This document shows, in pieces, positions 9,899 to 27,337 of a stretch of DNA of 45,617 bases. This stretch comes from a virus. A model generated the notes under the pieces. The model had not been told where the DNA came from, ran no database searches, and worked only from the letters and a program-made list of their open reading frames with translations. The first letter of the stretch is position 1. Each line of letters begins with the position of its first letter. The position numbers and the translations under genes are program-made. Where the stretch lies: IMG/VR virus record IMGVR_UViG_3300049595_003995, positions 1 to 45,617 of that record; one strand, 5' to 3'.

Positions 9899-9926
9899 TT
9901 GATTTATTTTAAAGTTAGTTTATAAT
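9899..9926 (+). promoter_or_regulatory. early sigma70-like promoter of the queC operon
   Basis: TTGATT (9899-9904) and a perfect TATAAT (9921-9926) are 16 bp apart; the ATG at 9935 is 8 bp beyond. Confidence 0.7.
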
Positions 9927-9934
9927 CACTACAT

Positions 9935-10660
9935 ATGTCTAAGTGTGTAGTTATCTATTCCGGTGGTATGGATTCAACAGTTATCCTCCATCACTGTTTA
10001 AACAAATACGATGAAGTCTATTGCCTGACTTATGATTATAATCAGCGTCATAAAGAAGAGATTGAAAAAGCTCTCAATTATACAACAGATCTAGGTGTTG
10101 GTGAGGGTCAGAAGATTGCCCAGCACACTGTTGTTGACTTAAGTTTTTATGCAAATTTAGCTTCAGCATCAGCTCTGACTAATTCTGCCATTAATGTTCC
10201 AAAGATGAAGGATGTAATTGGAGAAGCCCAGACTACAGCTTACGTTCCTAATCGTAATATGGTAATGTTATCTATTGCTGTTGGTTATGCTGAATCTATT
10301 GACTCCCAAGATGTTTATTATGGTGCTGCTCTTGCTGATGATACAGGCGGTTATTGGGATTGCACTTTAGAGTTCCTCAATTTGTTTAATACCACTTTAG
10401 CTCTCAATCGTAAGAATAAGATTAGAGTCAGTGCACCTCTTATGCCTAAGTCTAAAGCTGAAATTATTAAATGGGGGCTAGAGATGGGTGTTGATTTTTC
10501 TAAAACTTTAACTTGTTACAACGGTGGCGAGAAGGCATGCGGTGAATGTCCTAGTTGTGCTGCGCGCATTAAAGGTTTTATTGATAATAAATTAATTGAC
10601 CCAATTCCTTATGCTAAAGATATTCCCTGGCAAGCCTATCAGTGTCAGCCTATAATGTAA
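9935..10660 (+). CDS. queC: 7-cyano-7-deazaguanine synthase QueC, 241 aa
   Basis: QueC makes preQ0 from 7-carboxy-7-deazaguanine, ammonia and ATP. The ATP-pyrophosphatase P-loop SGGMDS is at residues 9-14, and the zinc site has Cys194, Cys202, Cys205 and Cys208 (CGECPSC). The length is near that of cellular QueC (about 230). In phages preQ0 and its derivatives are inserted into DNA by DpdA and protect it from restriction. Two bases separate it from the amidotransferase gene, and it has a consensus early promoter. FolE, QueD, QueE and DpdA are not visible here, so precursor supply must come from the host or another part of the genome. Confidence 0.92.
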   Translation: MSKCVVIYSGGMDSTVILHHCLNKYDEVYCLTYDYNQRHKEEIEKALNYTTDLGVGEGQKIAQHTVVDLSFYANLASASALTNSAINVPKMKDVIGEAQTTAYVPNRNMVMLSIAVGYAESIDSQDVYYGAALADDTGGYWDCTLEFLNLFNTTLALNRKNKIRVSAPLMPKSKAEIIKWGLEMGVDFSKTLTCYNGGEKACGECPSCAARIKGFIDNKLIDPIPYAKDIPWQAYQCQPIM

Positions 10661-10662
10661 GA

Positions 10663-11307
10663 ATGTGTGCAATAAGTGGCTCGAGCAGCATTGATAGAGC
10701 CTACGAGCTCTATAGACTCGGTCTTGATAGAGGTTACCAGTCATCAGGGTTCTTAGGAGTCACTAAGAACAACTTTGTCTGTCTTAAACAGAAAGAAGTC
10801 TTTGAACTGAATTATCTCAAGGAAGAGATGAAACGTACTGAGGAGTTTCCTATCTATTGTCTATTTCACTCAAGAGCCCCTACTAATACAGCTAACCAAG
10901 AGTTTTCGCCTAAGACTACTCATCCTTTCTCATATAAGCATTGGTTTGTAGGACATAACGGAATTATTCAGAACTTTTACGAATTAAATTCTTATGCTAC
11001 CTGTATGGCTTTTAATACAGATTCTGCAATAATACCTTACCATTTGTGCTGGTCAGGAGACAATTTTAAACAGACATACGAGAAATATAAAGGGTTGTTA
11101 ACCTCATGGAGTTATAATTCTATAACCGGGGACATCTTTCTAGTCAAAGCCGGCTCATCACTTCATATGCATGAAGATTCATTTTGTTCTGTGGCTTTTG
11201 AAAGCTCTTCTTCAGTTGATAAAGACGGAATTGTATTTAAATTTAATGGAATGGGTTTTGAAGAGTATGAGACTTTTAATTACGACAACCCATATTTTCT
11301 TTTATGA
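10663..11307 (+). CDS. class II glutamine amidotransferase, stand-alone, 214 aa
   Basis: The start at MCAISG puts the nucleophile Cys2 at the mature N-terminus, as Ntn-type amidotransferases require; a longer frame starting 21 bp upstream would bury it. Other class II landmarks are RGYQSSG (23-29), HSR (69-71), HPF (87-89), HNG (98-100) and TD (119-120). It would release ammonia from glutamine. No synthetase domain is attached. In archaea and phage 9g a Gat domain is fused to QueC and makes the 7-amidino (archaeosine) base; here the same pair is split but adjacent, so a role on preQ0 is a reasonable inference. It overlaps the next gene by ATGA. Confidence 0.85.
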   Translation: MCAISGSSSIDRAYELYRLGLDRGYQSSGFLGVTKNNFVCLKQKEVFELNYLKEEMKRTEEFPIYCLFHSRAPTNTANQEFSPKTTHPFSYKHWFVGHNGIIQNFYELNSYATCMAFNTDSAIIPYHLCWSGDNFKQTYEKYKGLLTSWSYNSITGDIFLVKAGSSLHMHEDSFCSVAFESSSSVDKDGIVFKFNGMGFEEYETFNYDNPYFLL

Positions 11308-12026
11308 AACAAGTATTACTCGTTACTGCAACTAAAGCTAAGACTCTGGAAGAATTTAAACAGAGACCTCTTGCACCCTCTTTAGAGCTTCTCTGTGATA
11401 AAAGATACGATACGTCTCAATTTGATTTTGAAATAATAAAGGAAAATTCAACAGGTCTTCCTGAAGTATACAACCGCTATTTAAATGAGAAAAATAAAGA
11501 TAAGATTGTATTATTTGTTCATGATGATTTAGAGATTCATGATTTAAACTTAGTAGAAAAACTAAACGAGTCACCTTGGGATATTACGGGCCTGGCCGGC
11601 GGAGCTCAATTTAATTTTCAAGATAAGAATCTCTGGCATATTTGTTCACCTCGCGAGACTCATTCCGGTTCAGTAACTCATCCTTTAGCTCAGCAACAAG
11701 GTAATCAGATTCTAGTAGATCAATCTCGAAAGCTATCAACACTCTTTGGCCCTTGGCCTCAAAGATGTTTAGTACTTGATGGCTTGTTCTTAGCAGTTCA
11801 TGTTGACCGAGCTTTAGAGACAGAATGGAGATTTGACGAACGACATAAGTTTCATCACTACGACATTGCTTCATGTTTAGGTGCTAACGAGAAAAAGCTC
11901 AAGATGGGAACCTGGCCTATTTTTGTAGTTCATCACGGATTAGGTAACTCGTTTATGACTCCGGAATGGGAAGAGTCTAATAAAATTTTCAAAGAGAATT
12001 GGCAAAATGCCTTGAAGTCAAATTGA
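11304..12026 (+). CDS. StrF-type glycosyltransferase-like protein, 240 aa
   Basis: The pattern VLFVHDDLEI (about residues 69-78), the later FDERHKFHHYDIASCL (about 176-191) and the closing FVVHHGLG match the GT2-like family of StrF/Glyco_tranf_2_5 type, where the DD pair would bind the metal and nucleotide sugar. The protein is cytoplasmic. It is coupled to the amidotransferase gene by ATGA. Lying inside the deazaguanine gene set it might glycosylate a modified base or a virion protein; no acceptor can be read from the sequence. Confidence 0.7.
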   Translation: MKQVLLVTATKAKTLEEFKQRPLAPSLELLCDKRYDTSQFDFEIIKENSTGLPEVYNRYLNEKNKDKIVLFVHDDLEIHDLNLVEKLNESPWDITGLAGGAQFNFQDKNLWHICSPRETHSGSVTHPLAQQQGNQILVDQSRKLSTLFGPWPQRCLVLDGLFLAVHVDRALETEWRFDERHKFHHYDIASCLGANEKKLKMGTWPIFVVHHGLGNSFMTPEWEESNKIFKENWQNALKSN

Positions 12027-12039
12027 CCTATTCTATAAT
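12012..12039 (+). promoter_or_regulatory. early sigma70-like promoter
   Basis: TTGAAG (12012-12017) and TATAAT (12034-12039) are 16 bp apart; 6 bp separate the -10 box from the ATG at 12046. It overlaps the 3' end of the glycosyltransferase gene. Confidence 0.65.
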
Positions 12040-12045
12040 ACACTT

Positions 12046-12633
12046 ATGATTATTAATAGACAGCTACTAAAGGAAGTATTTGGTGAAGATATATATGGCG
12101 GATGCCAAATCCATGACCGCTTTGCATATAAGTTTTTTAAGAAGGAGGTTAACCCGCTCGGCAATATTGTTTCGTTTGTTGCCCCGATGCTTGTAACCGA
12201 TAACCTCATCGACTTAGAAGATTCTCTCAATAAGGATTTTATCTATTCTGATATGGCTATGAACTTCATTATGGAGATTCCTGGCAAAGACATCTGGGGA
12301 GGTGTTTTGTTTCAGCGTTTGTTGAATGCTCAAGTCGGGTCTTTGTTGTGCAGTAAGTATCTCAATAAAGAAGGTTATGTTGATGGGGACGATATTATGA
12401 TTCATACTGATAACGAACCTAAGAAGGCTTCAGTTAGTATTGCTGCTGAGAAGAATGGAGCTGTTCTTATCCATCTTGGTATTAATATTGATGCTGGTCC
12501 TAAAGCGCCAGATTTTGCCTATTCCACTGAACTCGATAATGACCAGGCTCGTCATTTCATGACTGATGTTGAAAACATCTTTTATAGTATTCTTCAAGAC
12601 GTTTTTGTTGCTACGACTAAAATTATTGTGTGA
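12046..12633 (+). CDS. DUF366-like protein, 195 aa
   Basis: Landmarks in order match my memory of DUF366, a family of about 190 residues from archaea and some bacteria: HDRFAYKFF (about 24-32), NLIDLEDSLNKDFIYSD (about 53-69), LFQRLLNAQVGSLL (about 88-101) and KKASVSIA...LIHLGINID (about 126-148). The biochemical role of this family is not known to me with certainty. Its position two genes after QueC and the amidotransferase suggests a step in 7-deazaguanine metabolism. It has its own promoter and overlaps the clamp-loader gene by GTGA. Confidence 0.7.
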   Translation: MIINRQLLKEVFGEDIYGGCQIHDRFAYKFFKKEVNPLGNIVSFVAPMLVTDNLIDLEDSLNKDFIYSDMAMNFIMEIPGKDIWGGVLFQRLLNAQVGSLLCSKYLNKEGYVDGDDIMIHTDNEPKKASVSIAAEKNGAVLIHLGINIDAGPKAPDFAYSTELDNDQARHFMTDVENIFYSILQDVFVATTKIIV

Positions 12634-12980
12634 CAATATTTGATTATATAGGAGATATTCTCTCAAAGAAAAAAGGTAATCTTGTTTTAGATGAATACAT
12701 ACCCTTCTTAATAACAAGATGGTTATCATTTGTATCACCACAAACAACTTATGCTTTAAACAATACTGTAAATGTATTAGGTAATATAGACAAAAATTAT
12801 CATTACAAATTACTTGTAGCGTTATTTCCTAAGTTAAAATATACCCCTCGCATACAGTATATAAAGAAAAACAAAAAGGAAAAAGAAGATAATAAAGAAA
12901 TTAAAATGCTAGCAAGTAATTTAGAATTATCCCAAAGAGAAACACAACAATTGCTTGACTTACAAAAAAAAATTAGTTAA
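12630..12980 (+). CDS. 62: clamp-loader small subunit, gp62-like, 116 aa
   Basis: The sequence FDYIGDIL, the strand DEYIPFLITRWLSF, TTYALNNTVNVL and DKNYHYKLLVALFPK follow the pattern of T4-like gp62 (KVP40 type: YPPFMVNRxLS, NEMNR, LDxxxQFDFL). gp62 partners with gp44 in the clamp loader that places the gp45 sliding clamp on DNA. The protein is shorter than T4 gp62 (187 residues). The GTG start overlaps the previous stop, which decides it. Genes 44, 45 and 43 are not in the window. Confidence 0.7.
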   Translation: MTIFDYIGDILSKKKGNLVLDEYIPFLITRWLSFVSPQTTYALNNTVNVLGNIDKNYHYKLLVALFPKLKYTPRIQYIKKNKKEKEDNKEIKMLASNLELSQRETQQLLDLQKKIS

Positions 12981-12990
12981 ATTATAAGAT

Positions 12991-13362
12991 ATGTTAGCAA
13001 GAGAAAATCAAGGAATAGCACCAGAAGATTATAAAGACTTACCTCTACCAGAAGATTACGAAATTACAGAGCTTTTATCGAACGTAATTGCAGCTGAGTA
13101 TGCAGACGTTGCAGAAGATGGTAAGAGTTTAATGCGTAATGGTATTATTTTACCTGCACAAGTTGTAGACCATAGAGCATGGAGGGTTGCAAAAGTAACT
13201 TTAGCTGGCCCGGAGTGTAAACAAGTTAAAAAAGACGATATTATTATTTTTCCAGGAGATAGAGGATTACAATCTTTGCAAAGAAACGGCAAAATGATTA
13301 TCTTTTTATCTGAAGAGCGTATTTTTGGTATTTGTAAGCCAATTAAGGCTAAGAAAAAATGA
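12991..13362 (+). CDS. GroES-like co-chaperonin (functional gp31/CocO analogue), 123 aa
   Basis: The core reads like Cpn10: NGIILPAQVV (about 50-59), VTLAGPECKQVKKDDIIIFPGDRG (about 68-91), NGKMIIFLSEERIFGIC (about 98-114). It would cap the host GroEL chamber for folding of phage proteins such as the major capsid protein, as gp31 does in T4. The N-terminal 45 residues are an acidic extension not found in GroES. The gene is tightly packed and its stop overlaps the next ATG. Confidence 0.75.
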   Translation: MLARENQGIAPEDYKDLPLPEDYEITELLSNVIAAEYADVAEDGKSLMRNGIILPAQVVDHRAWRVAKVTLAGPECKQVKKDDIIIFPGDRGLQSLQRNGKMIIFLSEERIFGICKPIKAKKK

Positions 13363-15002: not shown

Positions 15003-15119
15003 ATGATAAACACCCCTCACTTTAATGCTGTTATAAAGCCTTTTTTTACTGAAGCTAAAAAATGCAGTAAAAAGAAACCTGTTAAAGTCCTTAAGAAGAA
15101 GCATTCGAAGAGTAAATAA
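15003..15119 (+). CDS. small basic protein, 38 aa
   Basis: MINTPHFNAVIKPFFTEAKK is followed by a Lys-rich tail (12 Lys in the last 20 residues). The ATG is four bases after the previous stop. The 3' end overlaps the convergent dCMP deaminase gene by 29 bp. Such basic peptides can bind DNA or RNA, but the call rests only on position and an intact frame. Confidence 0.4.
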   Translation: MINTPHFNAVIKPFFTEAKKCSKKKPVKVLKKKHSKSK

Positions 15120-15522
15120 TTTGAACTACAGGTATTCCGCACTTCTTTAAGAACTTTATTCCTGTATCATCTCTATAGATGTTTTTGTAGTATACTTTTC
15201 CTATCCCTGCACTATAGATAATCTTAGCACAATGAATACAAGGTGCATGTGTTACAAACATTATAGTACCTTCTCCTGATACACATGATCTTGCTAACTT
15301 AGCAATGCAGTTTGCTTCCGCATGAATTACTTCTGGCACTGTTTGTCCGTCTTTATCTTCACAAACATTAGACCAACCGGAAGGGGTGCCATTATAACCG
15401 ATCGCAATAATAGAGTCTCCTTTAACTAATACAGCACCGACTTGAAGTTTCTTAGCCGAGGAAAGTTGAGCAAAACGCTCGGCTACATCCATATAAGCCC
15501 TTCTCCACTTAGGCTTCATCAT
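15091..15522 (-). CDS. cd: dCMP deaminase, 143 aa
   Basis: The zinc-dependent deaminase site is complete: HAE (His67, Glu69) and PCIHC (Cys95, Cys98). It converts dCMP to dUMP, the substrate for thymidylate synthase; ThyX is encoded at 26678-27337. The length is slightly below T4 Cd (193 residues) and near bacterial ComEB-type enzymes. Its start overlaps the stop of a small membrane-protein gene (ATGA). The second Met is an equally good start. Confidence 0.9.
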   Translation of the reverse strand: MMKPKWRRAYMDVAERFAQLSSAKKLQVGAVLVKGDSIIAIGYNGTPSGWSNVCEDKDGQTVPEVIHAEANCIAKLARSCVSGEGTIMFVTHAPCIHCAKIIYSAGIGKVYYKNIYRDDTGIKFLKKCGIPVVQIIYSSNASS

Positions 15523-17044: not shown

Positions 17045-17259
17045 AAATAGGACCTATTAATATTTGGTTTGGTTGGGTAGCTTTATTTCATTTAAAAGCT
17101 TACCCTCGTTTTTCTGTTTTTAATGGTGGCAAGTATTGGAAGTTTTCTATATACTGGTTTAAGTATTTGCTAGAGTTTTCAGGACCTAAAAAAGATAAAA
17201 CTATCTATAAAGAAGTAACCTCCGAAGAACTAGATAAAATTTTAAAAGATTTAAAATGA
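17041..17259 (+). CDS. hypothetical aromatic-rich protein, 72 aa
   Basis: The ATG overlapping the previous TGA is preferred to in-frame GTG codons upstream. The first 50 residues hold many Trp, Phe and Tyr (NIWFGWVALFHLKAYPRFS) and may associate with a membrane; the C-terminus is charged. GGAGG occurs 12 bp upstream, too far to be a convincing ribosome site. Confidence 0.5.
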   Translation: MKIGPINIWFGWVALFHLKAYPRFSVFNGGKYWKFSIYWFKYLLEFSGPKKDKTIYKEVTSEELDKILKDLK

Positions 17260-17657
17260 AAAAGAAAAACAAAGATATTAAAATTGCCCAAAACGCAGCT
17301 GTAAGACAGATCTGGTTTATTTGTGGTTTGTTTGCAACAGGTTTGGGTATTGCTGGTTACATTCTACCGATCATGCCTGGTACAACATTTATTTTAATTG
17401 CTGTTTATTGTTTTGCTCGAAGTAATGAAGAGTGGTATAACAAGTTGCTTAACAACAAATATTTTGGACAAACAATTAAGGACTTTAAAGCTGGGAAGGG
17501 CATGTCTTTAAAAGCTAAAGTTTCCGCTATTACTTGTATTTTATTGTCAATTGGTATTAGTATGTACTTTGCTACCAACGATTATATCAGATTTTTCTTA
17601 TTGTTTTGTTGCGCAATAGCAACTAGTATTGTTTTTTTACAAAAAACAAAAAAATGA
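17256..17657 (+). CDS. DUF454 / YbaN-family membrane protein, 133 aa
   Basis: The order GIAGYILPIMPGTTFILIA, CFARSNEEWYNKLLNNKYFG and KGMSLKAKVSA matches the DUF454 signature (GxxGxxLPxxPxTPFxLxA, then an RSS/wLL patch). Two to four transmembrane helices are predicted (about residues 18-50 and 85-128). It would lie in the inner membrane. The family's role is unknown; in a phage it could alter the envelope or exclude other phages. It is coupled to a lipoprotein gene by an ATGA overlap. Confidence 0.75.
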   Translation: MKKKNKDIKIAQNAAVRQIWFICGLFATGLGIAGYILPIMPGTTFILIAVYCFARSNEEWYNKLLNNKYFGQTIKDFKAGKGMSLKAKVSAITCILLSIGISMYFATNDYIRFFLLFCCAIATSIVFLQKTKK

Positions 17658-17911
17658 AATTTATTTCTTTTATTATAGCTCTATTTGTAACTTCATGTAC
17701 ACATACAAAGGTTTCAGGAGAGTTTAATTACTATAAAAAAGAATACGAAACAGCTAAAAATAAAGTTGGTTTAAACTTTAAAAAACCTATCTATGAAACA
17801 AAAGATGGATCTAAAATGTTTTATACTGGTGGCAGTATATATCATAACTATGACATTTTTAACAGCGTATATTATATTAATGGGTTTGGTCAATTTGGAG
17901 TAGAGTTCTAA
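17654..17911 (+). CDS. lipoprotein, 85 aa
   Basis: MKFISFIIALFVTSC is a lipoprotein signal with the Cys at residue 15; Thr at +2 predicts outer-membrane sorting under the E. coli rule. The mature part is Tyr/Lys-rich and may form a small beta sheet. After the Cys it reads THTKV, close to AHTEV in the lipoprotein at 1988-2293. It is coupled to the DUF454 gene. An envelope-modifying or lysis role is possible. Confidence 0.65.
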   Translation: MKFISFIIALFVTSCTHTKVSGEFNYYKKEYETAKNKVGLNFKKPIYETKDGSKMFYTGGSIYHNYDIFNSVYYINGFGQFGVEF

Positions 17912-19508: not shown

Positions 19509-19782
19509 AGTTTATTTCCATAATGTTGATTGTTTAAAGAACTTTCACATTATTCAAAAGTATAAAGATGCTTTACTAGCTTTGTCTGAACGGGAGATTT
19601 ATTTACCGAAATCAGCTTTTAAATGGATTGAAACAGAACAAGAAATTATACAAGCACTGAATAGAATTATAGACTATTATCTTGCAGAAGGATTGCTTGC
19701 AAAAGATTCAAACACCAATAAAATTAAACCGCATTATTATGAACCGATCGCTGAACTACAAAGACATACACCTCGTTCCTAA
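19480..19782 (+). CDS. hypothetical protein, 100 aa
   Basis: The start ATG lies inside the previous gene (29 bp overlap), and no later in-frame ATG is available near the N-terminus. The protein is helical with alternating charge (SEREIYLPKSAFKWIETEQE). Its last 44 bp overlap the GMP reductase gene. This double overlap makes the exact limits uncertain. No family recognised. Confidence 0.45.
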   Translation: MTLTKIQNPKVYFHNVDCLKNFHIIQKYKDALLALSEREIYLPKSAFKWIETEQEIIQALNRIIDYYLAEGLLAKDSNTNKIKPHYYEPIAELQRHTPRS

Positions 19783-20722
19783 CTACTCTGAACTCCGGTC
19801 TCGCTCTGATGCAGATACATTTGTAGGCTTTGGCAATTGGGCCTTTAGGCTTCCTATCGTACCAGCTAATATGGCTTCGTGTATTGATATGAGTAAGGCT
19901 TCTTGGCTTGCTCAAAATGGCTTTTTCTACATTATGCATCGATTCTATGAGTATGATGAGATTCTAAACTGGATGCGAAGAATGAATAAATGTGATGATC
20001 TTCTTCCCTTTGTTTCCATCTCAGTGGGAATTAAAAAGAGGGATGTAGATTTGATCGGTACAATTGCAGAAGAAAATCTTAGACTAGATTTTGTCACAGT
20101 TGATGTAGCCCATGGCGATCATTCTGAAGCTATTGGTATGCTTCGATATTTGAATCTTTATAAGAAATCTTTTAACCCTGATTTGTTTATTATTGGAGGT
20201 AATATTGCTACGGCTTCAGCTTATTTTAGAATGGCACCTTACATTCAAGCAGCTAAGGTAGGTATTGCCTGCGGCGCTTCTTGTATCACTTACAACAAGA
20301 CAGGTTTTGCCTCTCCTATGTTCTCTACCGTTAATGAGATTAGACAGGCAAGGGAAGAGTATAACGAAGGGCCACCCCCTCTTATTATCGCTGATGGAGG
20401 TATTTCTTGTAATGGTGATATTGCTAAGGCTTTGGTAGCAGGTGCTGATATGGTTATGGCTGGTTCTATGTTTGCTCGTTGTATTGACTCCCCGGCTATG
20501 GTTGATCCAACTGATCCTACTAAGAAGCTTTATTTCGGTTCTGCCTCTTTAATGAATGGTAATAAGAAGAATATTGAAGGACGGACACTGTCTATGCCGA
20601 TGAATGGTATGACTTACGAGCAGAAGCTTAAAGAGGTTTACCAAGATCTTACTTCAGCTATTTCTTATGCTGGAGGAGATAATTTAGATGCTTTTAAAGA
20701 AGTTGAATATAGATTAATTTAG
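19739..20722 (+). CDS. guaC: GMP reductase (GuaC), 327 aa
   Basis: A TIM-barrel enzyme reducing GMP to IMP and ammonia with NADPH. NYKDIHLVPNYSELRSRSD (from residue 6), VPANM, YIMHRF and the closing SAISYAGG match the Bacillus/Staphylococcus type of GuaC. The catalytic Cys is Cys182 in ASCITYNKTGF; KTG after it distinguishes GMP reductase from IMP dehydrogenase, and the CBS domains of IMPDH are absent. The loop before Cys has GIACGAS instead of the usual GIGPGxV. The start at MNRSLN gives the usual family length. A phage GMP reductase would shift guanine to adenine nucleotides. Confidence 0.85.
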   Translation: MNRSLNYKDIHLVPNYSELRSRSDADTFVGFGNWAFRLPIVPANMASCIDMSKASWLAQNGFFYIMHRFYEYDEILNWMRRMNKCDDLLPFVSISVGIKKRDVDLIGTIAEENLRLDFVTVDVAHGDHSEAIGMLRYLNLYKKSFNPDLFIIGGNIATASAYFRMAPYIQAAKVGIACGASCITYNKTGFASPMFSTVNEIRQAREEYNEGPPPLIIADGGISCNGDIAKALVAGADMVMAGSMFARCIDSPAMVDPTDPTKKLYFGSASLMNGNKKNIEGRTLSMPMNGMTYEQKLKEVYQDLTSAISYAGGDNLDAFKEVEYRLI

Positions 20723-20736: not shown

Positions 20737-21603
20737 ATGTTTCACGTTATACTCGGTAAGGGCTTTGTTGGTAGTCATCTTGCTCACTACTTTAAAATAA
20801 ACAACATAGAGCATAAAATCTTTTCTCAATCTGATCTTGACTATACTGATCCGGATAAGTTGAGGGAGTTTATAGAAGAGAACGACAGAGATATTAAGAC
20901 TGTTATTAATTGCAGTGGCTATACTGGAATTCCTAACGTAGATGCTTGCGAAGATAACAAAGAGCTTTGTTATAACTATAACGTTCTGTACCCCTTAAAT
21001 GTTGTTAAGATTTGTCACGCCTTCTCTATCCCCGTTATTCATATTGGTTCGGGGTGTATTTACTCCGGGTATGATAAAGTATACACAGAAGAGGATACCC
21101 CTAACTTTGGAATGTTTTCTAATGAGTCCTCCTACTACTCAAAGTGTAAGCATGTATTTGAGACCTTTGCTAAGAACTATAAATGCTATGTTCTAAGAAT
21201 TAGAATTCCTTTTACAGATGTCTTAACTCGTAAGAATTATTTTGCAAAGTTACTTGGTTATGACACTCTAATTAACGAACTTAACTCGGTTACCTCCCTT
21301 AATGATTTTAACGAGTTTTTAGTGCAATTTATTGCTACAAGGCCTGACTATGGCATTTACAATGTAGTTAACCCTGAACCTATCAAAGCTGAAGAGGTTG
21401 TTTGGTTACTTGAGAAGCATGGATTAAAAAATCCTAATTGGAAGTTTATTGAGCTTAAAGATCTTAATACAAAAGCCAATAGATCAAATTGTGTATTGTC
21501 AACTAATAAACTTCAAAAATACAATCTCGAGCTTCCTAGCACTAGAGACTCATTAGTTCGAGATATTGTTCAATTAGCTCGTTCACAAGGACAAGATGTA
21601 TGA
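20737..21603 (+). CDS. RmlD-like NAD(P)-dependent sugar reductase/epimerase, 288 aa
   Basis: The Rossmann fingerprint GKGFVG (residues 7-12), the NCSGYTG segment after strand 4 and the catalytic pair Tyr134/Lys138 (YYSKCK) identify an extended short-chain dehydrogenase close to dTDP-4-dehydrorhamnose reductase. It would make or modify a nucleotide sugar in the cytoplasm. With the two glycosyltransferases in the window it might supply a donor. It has its own promoter and overlaps the next gene by ATGA. Confidence 0.8.
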   Translation: MFHVILGKGFVGSHLAHYFKINNIEHKIFSQSDLDYTDPDKLREFIEENDRDIKTVINCSGYTGIPNVDACEDNKELCYNYNVLYPLNVVKICHAFSIPVIHIGSGCIYSGYDKVYTEEDTPNFGMFSNESSYYSKCKHVFETFAKNYKCYVLRIRIPFTDVLTRKNYFAKLLGYDTLINELNSVTSLNDFNEFLVQFIATRPDYGIYNVVNPEPIKAEEVVWLLEKHGLKNPNWKFIELKDLNTKANRSNCVLSTNKLQKYNLELPSTRDSLVRDIVQLARSQGQDV

Positions 21604-26677: not shown

Positions 26678-27337
26678 TTAACTCCATTTTAAAGCTTTTG
26701 CAATGTTTGGAAAGGTTTCACAGAAGATTTTTTTCATTTCAAGTGCTACCTCTCTATGCTCCTTTTGGGTATCTTCTTTAGCTCTCAGCTGTATATAATG
26801 AATAAAGGATCTAACTGACCCAGACATATAGAGCACAGTCTGAGTATTGAGTGGTAAGACCATCCGTGCACATTCTCTTGCAACACCGGAGTCAATAAGC
26901 TTATCATAAGCCTTAAGACATTGTTGTTGAGCCTCATGAACTACAACAGCTACATCTAAGTTCTGTGACATAGGGTATTCTTCATCTCCTACCTGGCGGT
27001 TTGTCTTGCCTTGCTTTCTAAACTGTAAGTCTTCAAGTTGAGTTGCAGTTGAATAACGCTGACTGAATTCCTGAAAAGTAAACGATCTATGTCTCAATAT
27101 CTGAGCTGCAATAGCCCTACTAGTTACAATCTCAAAGGTGCAATAAGCTTGTTCGAAGATAGACCAGTGTTGGTGTTTAATACAGTAATTGATCAGTTTA
27201 TCAGAAGTATCAGTGTTGAATTGATTTGAAGGGTTAGACACCCGGGCACAATACACAATGAACCTCTCGGCATCGTTTATACCTTTTTCTTGAAGTTCAG
27301 TTGAAGGTTGTGTAATAGCTTTTAATGTAACGTTCAT
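26678..27337 (-). CDS. thyX: FAD-dependent thymidylate synthase ThyX, 219 aa
   Basis: The ThyX signature RHRx7S is present at residues 82-92 (RHRSFTFQEFS), continuing to QRYS. The enzyme makes dTMP from dUMP with methylene-tetrahydrofolate, NADPH and FAD. Arg in YMSGSVRSFIHYIQLR and the closing helix are also typical. The length is usual for the family. It is the second gene of a minus-strand operon with a small coiled-coil protein (ATGA overlap) and works after dCMP deaminase. Confidence 0.93.
   Translation of the reverse strand: MNVTLKAITQPSTELQEKGINDAERFIVYCARVSNPSNQFNTDTSDKLINYCIKHQHWSIFEQAYCTFEIVTSRAIAAQILRHRSFTFQEFSQRYSTATQLEDLQFRKQGKTNRQVGDEEYPMSQNLDVAVVVHEAQQQCLKAYDKLIDSGVARECARMVLPLNTQTVLYMSGSVRSFIHYIQLRAKEDTQKEHREVALEMKKIFCETFPNIAKALKWS

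Follow-up and report, generated by a model that had tools for sequence, protein, structure and literature searches.

Closest described systems

Enterobacteria phage 9g encodes QueC, a class II glutaminase, FolE, QueD and QueE, and a DNA transglycosylase of type DpdA1. The glutaminase (Gat) is fused to QueC, and the fused protein, Gat-QueC, gives the 7-amidino base G+ in 9g DNA (PMC6884629). We analyzed a locus with similar components in IMG/VR virus record IMGVR_UViG_3300049595_003995 (45,617 b; this whole stretch of DNA is called the window below). In contrast to 9g, QueC and a class II glutamine amidotransferase (GAT) are two polypeptides here, genes for a glycosyltransferase (GT) and a DUF366 protein are additional, and the transglycosylase found in relatives of the window is of type DpdA3. 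We think it likely that this four-gene cassette is part of a DpdA3-type pathway by which the phage modifies its DNA with 7-deazaguanine.

A stand-alone GAT immediately after QueC is also present in Vibrio phage nt-1 and the KVP40 group, Pseudomonas phage pf16, and Vibrio phage 2.275.O. The nt-1 gene (HQ317393.2, 240098-240706; 15099-15707 of our locus L112) follows exsB/QueC, lies beside DpdA2, FolE, QueD and QueE, and is annotated as hypothetical. The pf16 gene follows QueC in a cluster with QueE, QueD, FolE and DpdA2. Both phages thus have DpdA2, unlike the DpdA3-containing relatives of the window. The GATs of nt-1, pf16 and 2.275.O are annotated as hypothetical or as "nucleophile aminohydrolase", and never named GAT in these records. 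By our searches, the 7-cyano-7-deazaguanine (preQ0) clusters of the nt-1/KVP40 group, pf16 and 2.275.O contain no match to GT or DUF366. DNA of nt-1 contains the deoxynucleosides of preQ0 (dPreQ0), of 7-amido-7-deazaguanine (dADG) and, at about 0.02%, of G+ (dG+) (PMC6884629).

Campylobacter phage CP220, Flavobacterium phage immuto and Cellulophaga phage phiST have a DpdA3-type transglycosylase together with preQ0-pathway genes. No homologs of DUF366, GAT or GT were found in these three phages, and no QueC in the stretch of phiST that was read. Searches of nt-1, pf16 and CP220 did not find DUF366, so it appears to be an add-on to the known systems. CP220 is a Firehammervirus; according to a secondary source, guanosine is replaced by deoxyinosine and deazaguanosine in Campylobacter Fletchervirus and Firehammervirus phages (PMC8713573).

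A preliminary description of the window had proposed a two-protein version of Gat-QueC as possibly new. The split itself is already present in nt-1, pf16 and 2.275.O, but the reading as a split enzyme is supported, since GAT occurs only with QueC (below). What is new is the link between GAT-GT and DUF366. More than the split, the surprise is that uncultivated T4-like phages have a conserved GT and DUF366 coupled to a pathway of the DpdA3 type.

A four-gene cassette upstream of gp62

The window is probably a fragment. It comes from a T4-like myovirus, as indicated by genes for a portal, a tail sheath stabiliser, a gp62-like clamp loader and a GroES-like protein. The cassette occupies positions 9935-12633 on one strand, upstream of the gp62 and GroES-like genes:

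9935-10660, + strand: QueC (7-cyano-7-deazaguanine synthase family), 241 aa (PF06508, E=1.2e-61)
10663-11307, + strand: GAT, stand-alone class II (N-terminal nucleophile) glutamine amidotransferase with Cys2, 214 aa (motifs, profile)
11304-12026, + strand: GT, GT-A-type glycosyltransferase (PF13712-like), 240 aa (profile and AlphaFold2 model)
12046-12633, + strand: DUF366 protein with a biotin/lipoate-protein-ligase fold, 195 aa (PF04017, E=3.5e-22, 79.2 bits)
12630-12980, + strand: gp62-like clamp-loader small subunit, context; 4-base overlap with the DUF366 stop (phrog_225, E=1.2e-10)
12991-13362, + strand: GroES-like co-chaperonin (gp31 analogue), context (phrog_3188, E=8.6e-6)

Two bases separate QueC from GAT, GAT and GT share 4 bases, and 19 bases lie between GT and DUF366.

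QueC is of the canonical type. It scored 208.3 bits with PF06508 (cut-off 22), and its matches in the PDB included QueC 2PG3 (E=3e-34) and, distantly, Cap9 (5e-8). We aligned it against the published signature of canonical QueC (PF06508 cluster 1), which consists of SGGxDS, YxQxHxxE, VPxRN, YPDC and a zinc motif, C(x)8CxxCxxC (PMC13329287). The window protein has SGGMDS, YNQRHKEE, VPNRN and YWDC (P to W). Its zinc motif, CYNGGEKACGECPSC, contains all four Cys as C-x7-CxxCxxC, one residue shorter than the published spacing. These Cys are retained in the window clade and in G065 (G and L numbers are our labels for relative contigs and loci). In the marine relatives (G015, G020, G040-042 and G062-064), QueC has lost three of the four but retains the catalytic motifs (e.g., G015 90475-91221, ..DATTPSSSLR..). 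By profile and motifs, the protein encoded at 9935-10660 is predicted to synthesize preQ0 from 7-carboxy-7-deazaguanine (CDG).

GAT has the residues of a complete class II amidotransferase, as the preliminary description had noted: Cys2, HSR, HNG and TD. Its N-terminus reads MCAISG. C2, R71, N99, G100 and D120 were invariant in an alignment with 13 relatives, and C2, N99, G100 and D120 in 12 diverse sequences. A profile made from 12 GAT sequences matched the glutaminase domains of GlmS, PurF and AsnB in the PDB (best E=8.6e-14). With PF13522, the window copy scored 25.9 bits, just under the cut-off of 27, and one relative scored 33.3 bits, above it. A program-made list of open reading frames starts GAT at a GTG at 10642. 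Class II amidotransferases require Cys at position 2, so the ATG at 10663 is the likelier start. GAT is divergent from the Gat of 9g (18% identity). Since GAT and QueC are separate reading frames and not a single polypeptide, the pair would at most work like Gat-QueC and is not Gat-QueC proper.

GT resembles GT-A enzymes. The window copy scored 26.3 bits with PF13712, just below the cut-off of 27, and a relative scored 41.3 bits. The AlphaFold2 model (predicted local distance difference test, pLDDT, 73.6) had 41 PDB matches at E<=1e-3, mainly glycosyltransferases and sugar nucleotidylyltransferases, and an HDD motif was invariant. No homolog of GT was found among 50,697 isolate phage records.

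GAT accompanies QueC

We found that the cassette is conserved. Searches of IMG/VR with DUF366 and GAT recovered the order QueC-GAT-GT-DUF366 in 14 other contigs with near-constant gaps; the gap between QueC and GAT was 5-7 nt, stop included. The gene order given in the preliminary description is thereby confirmed, and this linkage also supports its inclusion of GT and DUF366 in the module.

To avoid selection on the genes of interest, we also took samples anchored on UvsX or on the GroES-like neighbour. Where uvsX and gp41 were both present (59 loci), the slot between them contained QueC, GAT and GT in 46, QueC and GAT in seven, and none of the three in six. GAT was therefore present in all 53 slots with QueC (within 100 nt of it in 25/53), GAT and GT were missing from all six without it, and neither GAT nor GT occurred without QueC in any of the 59. 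The loci share ancestry. The six absences were confirmed by profile searches with working controls, and hold for the slot rather than for whole genomes; QueE, DpdA3 and QueD were retained in the same stretch in 5/6. These counts indicate that GAT accompanies QueC irrespective of GT. Together with the 14-contig recurrence, they led us to reject the reading that the cassette genes are chance neighbours.

The same counts argue against the notion that GAT and GT serve amino-sugar or surface-glycan synthesis and lie next to QueC by chance. The glutaminase domain of GlmS was the closest match to the GAT profile, relatives contain long glycosyltransferase arrays, and the window has an RmlD-like gene. 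However, the isomerase domain of GlmS is missing from GAT, the presence of GAT follows that of QueC (53/53 with, 0/6 without), and in relatives GT directly follows a DpdA3-like gene with a 4-base overlap. We regard a glycan role as improbable.

A second alternative is that GAT only supplies ammonia to QueC for its own reactions (CDG to 7-amido-7-deazaguanine, ADG, to preQ0), giving DNA with dPreQ0 or dADG and no amidine. The 53/53 co-occurrence and the seven GAT-containing slots without GT fit a glutamine-dependent QueC equally well, as do the canonical motifs kept in the window QueC. There is also precedent for separate synthetase and glutaminase subunits in archaeal GMP synthase (PMC13329287). 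Against this, 9g DNA contains G+ made by the known Gat-QueC fusion, and QueC belongs to a family whose canonical members function without a dedicated glutaminase. This alternative is a real possibility, short of what we expect. It is a variant within the DNA-modification pathway, in which GT and DUF366 may still decorate the base.

A DpdA3-type transglycosylase in relatives

The preliminary description had suggested searching for DpdA, FolE and QueD. None was found in the 45.6-kb window, but all are present in large relatives. We searched nine contigs of at least 100 kb (100-225 kb) for all pathway genes in a single search. QueC, QueD, QueE, GAT, GT, DUF366 and a second GT were present in 9/9, and FolE in 6/9. 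The pathway genes neighbour replication genes (gp62, uvsX, gp41, gp43). The second GT (404 aa; phrog_7162) adjoins the DNA polymerase gene gp43 in all nine (G041 77726-78937 and orthologs). In G015, a glycosyltransferase array (60901-68214) lies between the QueE/QueD/FolE genes and DUF366-gp62.

The transglycosylase was not visible to standard profiles. PF01702 (tRNA-guanine transglycosylase, TGT) had no match in 57 phage record searches, a negative that we discarded because PF01702 likewise fails to detect the DpdA proteins already known from 9g and nt-1. Surveys relying on that profile will undercount such systems. The DpdA1 profile phrog_887 and home-made hidden Markov models of DpdA1, DpdA2 and TGT, for which leave-out controls worked, had no match in five large relatives. 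A weak but coherent full-length profile alignment with DpdA first pointed to a conserved protein of 263 aa. This protein is 46-48% identical to one from CP220 and to the immuto "DNA guanine transglycosylase", whose stretch also holds QueD, QueE, FolE and QueF. It was present in 8/9 large relatives; the ninth, G020 (110 kb), is incomplete. By sequence, the 263-aa protein is a putative DpdA3-type transglycosylase, DpdA3 being the label that we take to apply from a 2023 study. That study reportedly linked DpdA3 to full guanine replacement.

The sample anchored on the GroES-like gene gave a direct link. Among 30 loci with gp62, 17 had the window cassette and six had a DpdA3-like gene followed by GT; a DUF366 relative was present in four of these six. 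A closer query added DpdA3-like genes in L481 and L484. In L476, L477, L482 and L484, the DpdA3-like gene shares 4 bases with GT, and the DUF366 relative comes next. The DUF366 relatives in this arrangement matched PF04017 with E-values of 4e-6 to 0.04 among those tested. The DpdA3-like protein aligned to DpdA3 (E=1.3e-14) and is 42% identical to a phiST protein located in a QueD-QueE-FolE cluster. In close relatives, then, a transglycosylase is physically linked to GT and DUF366 in the slot before gp62 that the cassette occupies in the window.

These findings bear on whether the module serves tRNA modification (host queuosine or archaeosine supply) rather than DNA. Most organisms use preQ0 genes for tRNA, and the window fragment has no transglycosylase that we could find. 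However, the relatives contain DpdA3, which has homologs annotated as DNA guanine transglycosylases, and the cassette genes are placed among the replication genes. A role in tRNA modification therefore seems to us a poor prospect. The preliminary description had tied the cassette to DNA base modification, and the preQ0 pathway and DpdA3-type transglycosylase of the relatives support that link. The genes, their conserved linkage, their joint presence and joint absence, and the DpdA3 of the relatives are established at the level of sequence prediction; from these we infer a partnership of GAT with QueC and DNA as the target.

The modelled fold of DUF366 resembles biotin and lipoate ligases

DUF366 has a solved structure (2DDZ, Pyrococcus PH1033) and no assigned function; our literature search returned no paper on it. 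The window protein scored well above the PF04017 cut-off (79.2 versus 29.9 bits). Its AlphaFold2 model (pLDDT 91.4) matched 2DDZ with Z=22.4 and biotin protein ligases with a Foldseek E of about 1e-6 and Z of about 12-13 over ~155 residues. The modelled fold is that of the biotin/lipoate-ligase (BirA/LplA) superfamily. K127 did not vary among 19 phage sequences and was also present in the Vampirovibrio and Pyrococcus relatives. It lies in GDDI..KxSVSI..HxGINI, which we likened, by eye only, to PNDL..K183..GAGINM of BirA. Unlike the folds, the sequences of DUF366 and BirA gave no significant hhalign match, and the GRGRRG motif of biotin protein ligases was not evident in DUF366. We raise an acyl-adenylate or ligase step as a hypothesis only, and consider it rather doubtful that DUF366 works as a ligase.

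A further reading draws on the ligase fold: like Cap9 and QatC, QueC might take part in deazaguanylation of proteins, possibly for defence or counter-defence, and DUF366 would be the protein ligase. Cap9 was a distant PDB match of the window QueC. However, true QueC was a far better match (3e-34 versus 5e-8), the canonical signature is retained, no CD-NTase or QatB partner was seen, and relatives link these genes to DpdA3. We consider deazaguanylation very improbable.

A genome scan for DUF366 reached only Thermococcales and Vampirovibrio. In one Thermococci contig (L140 3219-6531), QueC, DUF2139, a HAD-like gene and DUF366 are consecutive; this link is weak because L140 was the sole one of these DUF366 loci in which QueC was found. 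Among the 50,697 isolate records there was one match, in a record resembling bacterial contamination, and none in a genuine isolate phage; a PHROGs search returned no family. That record, of Microcystis phage MaAM05 (MW495066.1 108417-124947; L106), has a bacterial-looking stretch with secF, glyS and fliM, and its DUF366 protein is 99-100% identical to Vampirovibrio contigs. DpdL, DpdM and DpdN are enzymes said to come from the 2023 study on new phage 7-deazaguanines. Given no genuine isolate match and no PHROGs family, DUF366 is unlikely to be any of them.

DUF366 lies within 8 kb upstream of gp62 in 80/84 loci, most of them without adjacent QueC, and is therefore a long-standing occupant of that slot. 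Locus L035 has two copies (10001-10576 and 17127-17702), and in L463 (7032-7612) the gene is broken into two adjacent pieces.

Proposed pathway

Based on these results we suggest the following pathway. CDG would be made by FolE, QueD and QueE, encoded elsewhere on the phage or by the host, and activated by QueC using ATP. GAT would be the glutaminase half of a split Gat-QueC, a subunit of its own that delivers ammonia from glutamine, most likely to form the 7-amidino base (G+), or alternatively for QueC's own amide and nitrile steps. A DpdA3-type transglycosylase would swap the base for guanine in DNA, and GT would then probably attach a sugar to the 7-substituent. DUF366, which retains the invariant Lys, would probably carry out, somewhere along the pathway, an extra ATP-dependent step on the 7-substituent.

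The chemical product, the glycosylation and the DUF366 reaction are speculative. G+ is a strong contender, though we would not quite favour it over all other products combined. A glycosylated base is plausible rather than probable. Only tentatively, and doubting that every part will hold, do we propose a new class of hypermodified base: a 7-deazaguanine made by split Gat-QueC, extended by DUF366 in an ATP-dependent step, inserted by DpdA3 and then glycosylated, with guanine possibly replaced on a wide scale across a large set of uncultivated T4-like phages.

Several observations weigh against the DpdA3-type pathway or its parts. DpdA, FolE and QueD were found neither in the window nor in window-clade fragments of up to 55 kb, so the pathway is deduced from relatives. 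Seven QueC-GAT slots lack this GT. The phages with DUF366, GAT and GT may share ancestry, which would make co-occurrence not fully independent. DUF366 is degenerate, with the GDD and GIN motifs lost, in the DpdA3-like-GT-DUF366-gp62 loci L475, L476, L477, L482 and L484. In PHROGs, GAT scored no better for Gat-QueC than for other phage glutaminases. Finally, the dG+ of nt-1 is only ~0.02% of G and was credited by the authors to ArcS (PMC6884629). The stand-alone GAT of nt-1 is a candidate alternative source.

With the DpdA3-type pathway, two orphan families acquire a function that can be tested: DUF366 and the stand-alone phage GATs (the hypothetical proteins of nt-1, the KVP40 group and pf16). 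The pathway also suggests that guanine modification in many uncultivated T4-like phages, as a large group, is more elaborate than the 7-deazaguanines measured in phage DNA so far, perhaps with glycosylation.

Other genes in the window

One further gene could be an accessory to the pathway:

19682-20722, + strand: IMP dehydrogenase/GMP reductase domain (PF00478, E=5.9e-41)

It could influence the guanine nucleotide pool that supplies FolE. Just after it is a gene for an RmlD-like nucleoside diphosphate-sugar reductase (20737-21603), and the two could have roles in the GTP pool or in providing a sugar donor. A match to RXYLT1, a glycosyltransferase, in its C-terminal domain (PF24785, E=3.7e-7) makes positions 1158-1991 a possible further glycosyltransferase. 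The window also encodes a ThyX thymidylate synthase (26678-27337, - strand), a dCMP/cytidine deaminase (15091-15522, - strand) and a phage-borne member of family DUF454 (17256-17657; PF04304, E=6.9e-33).

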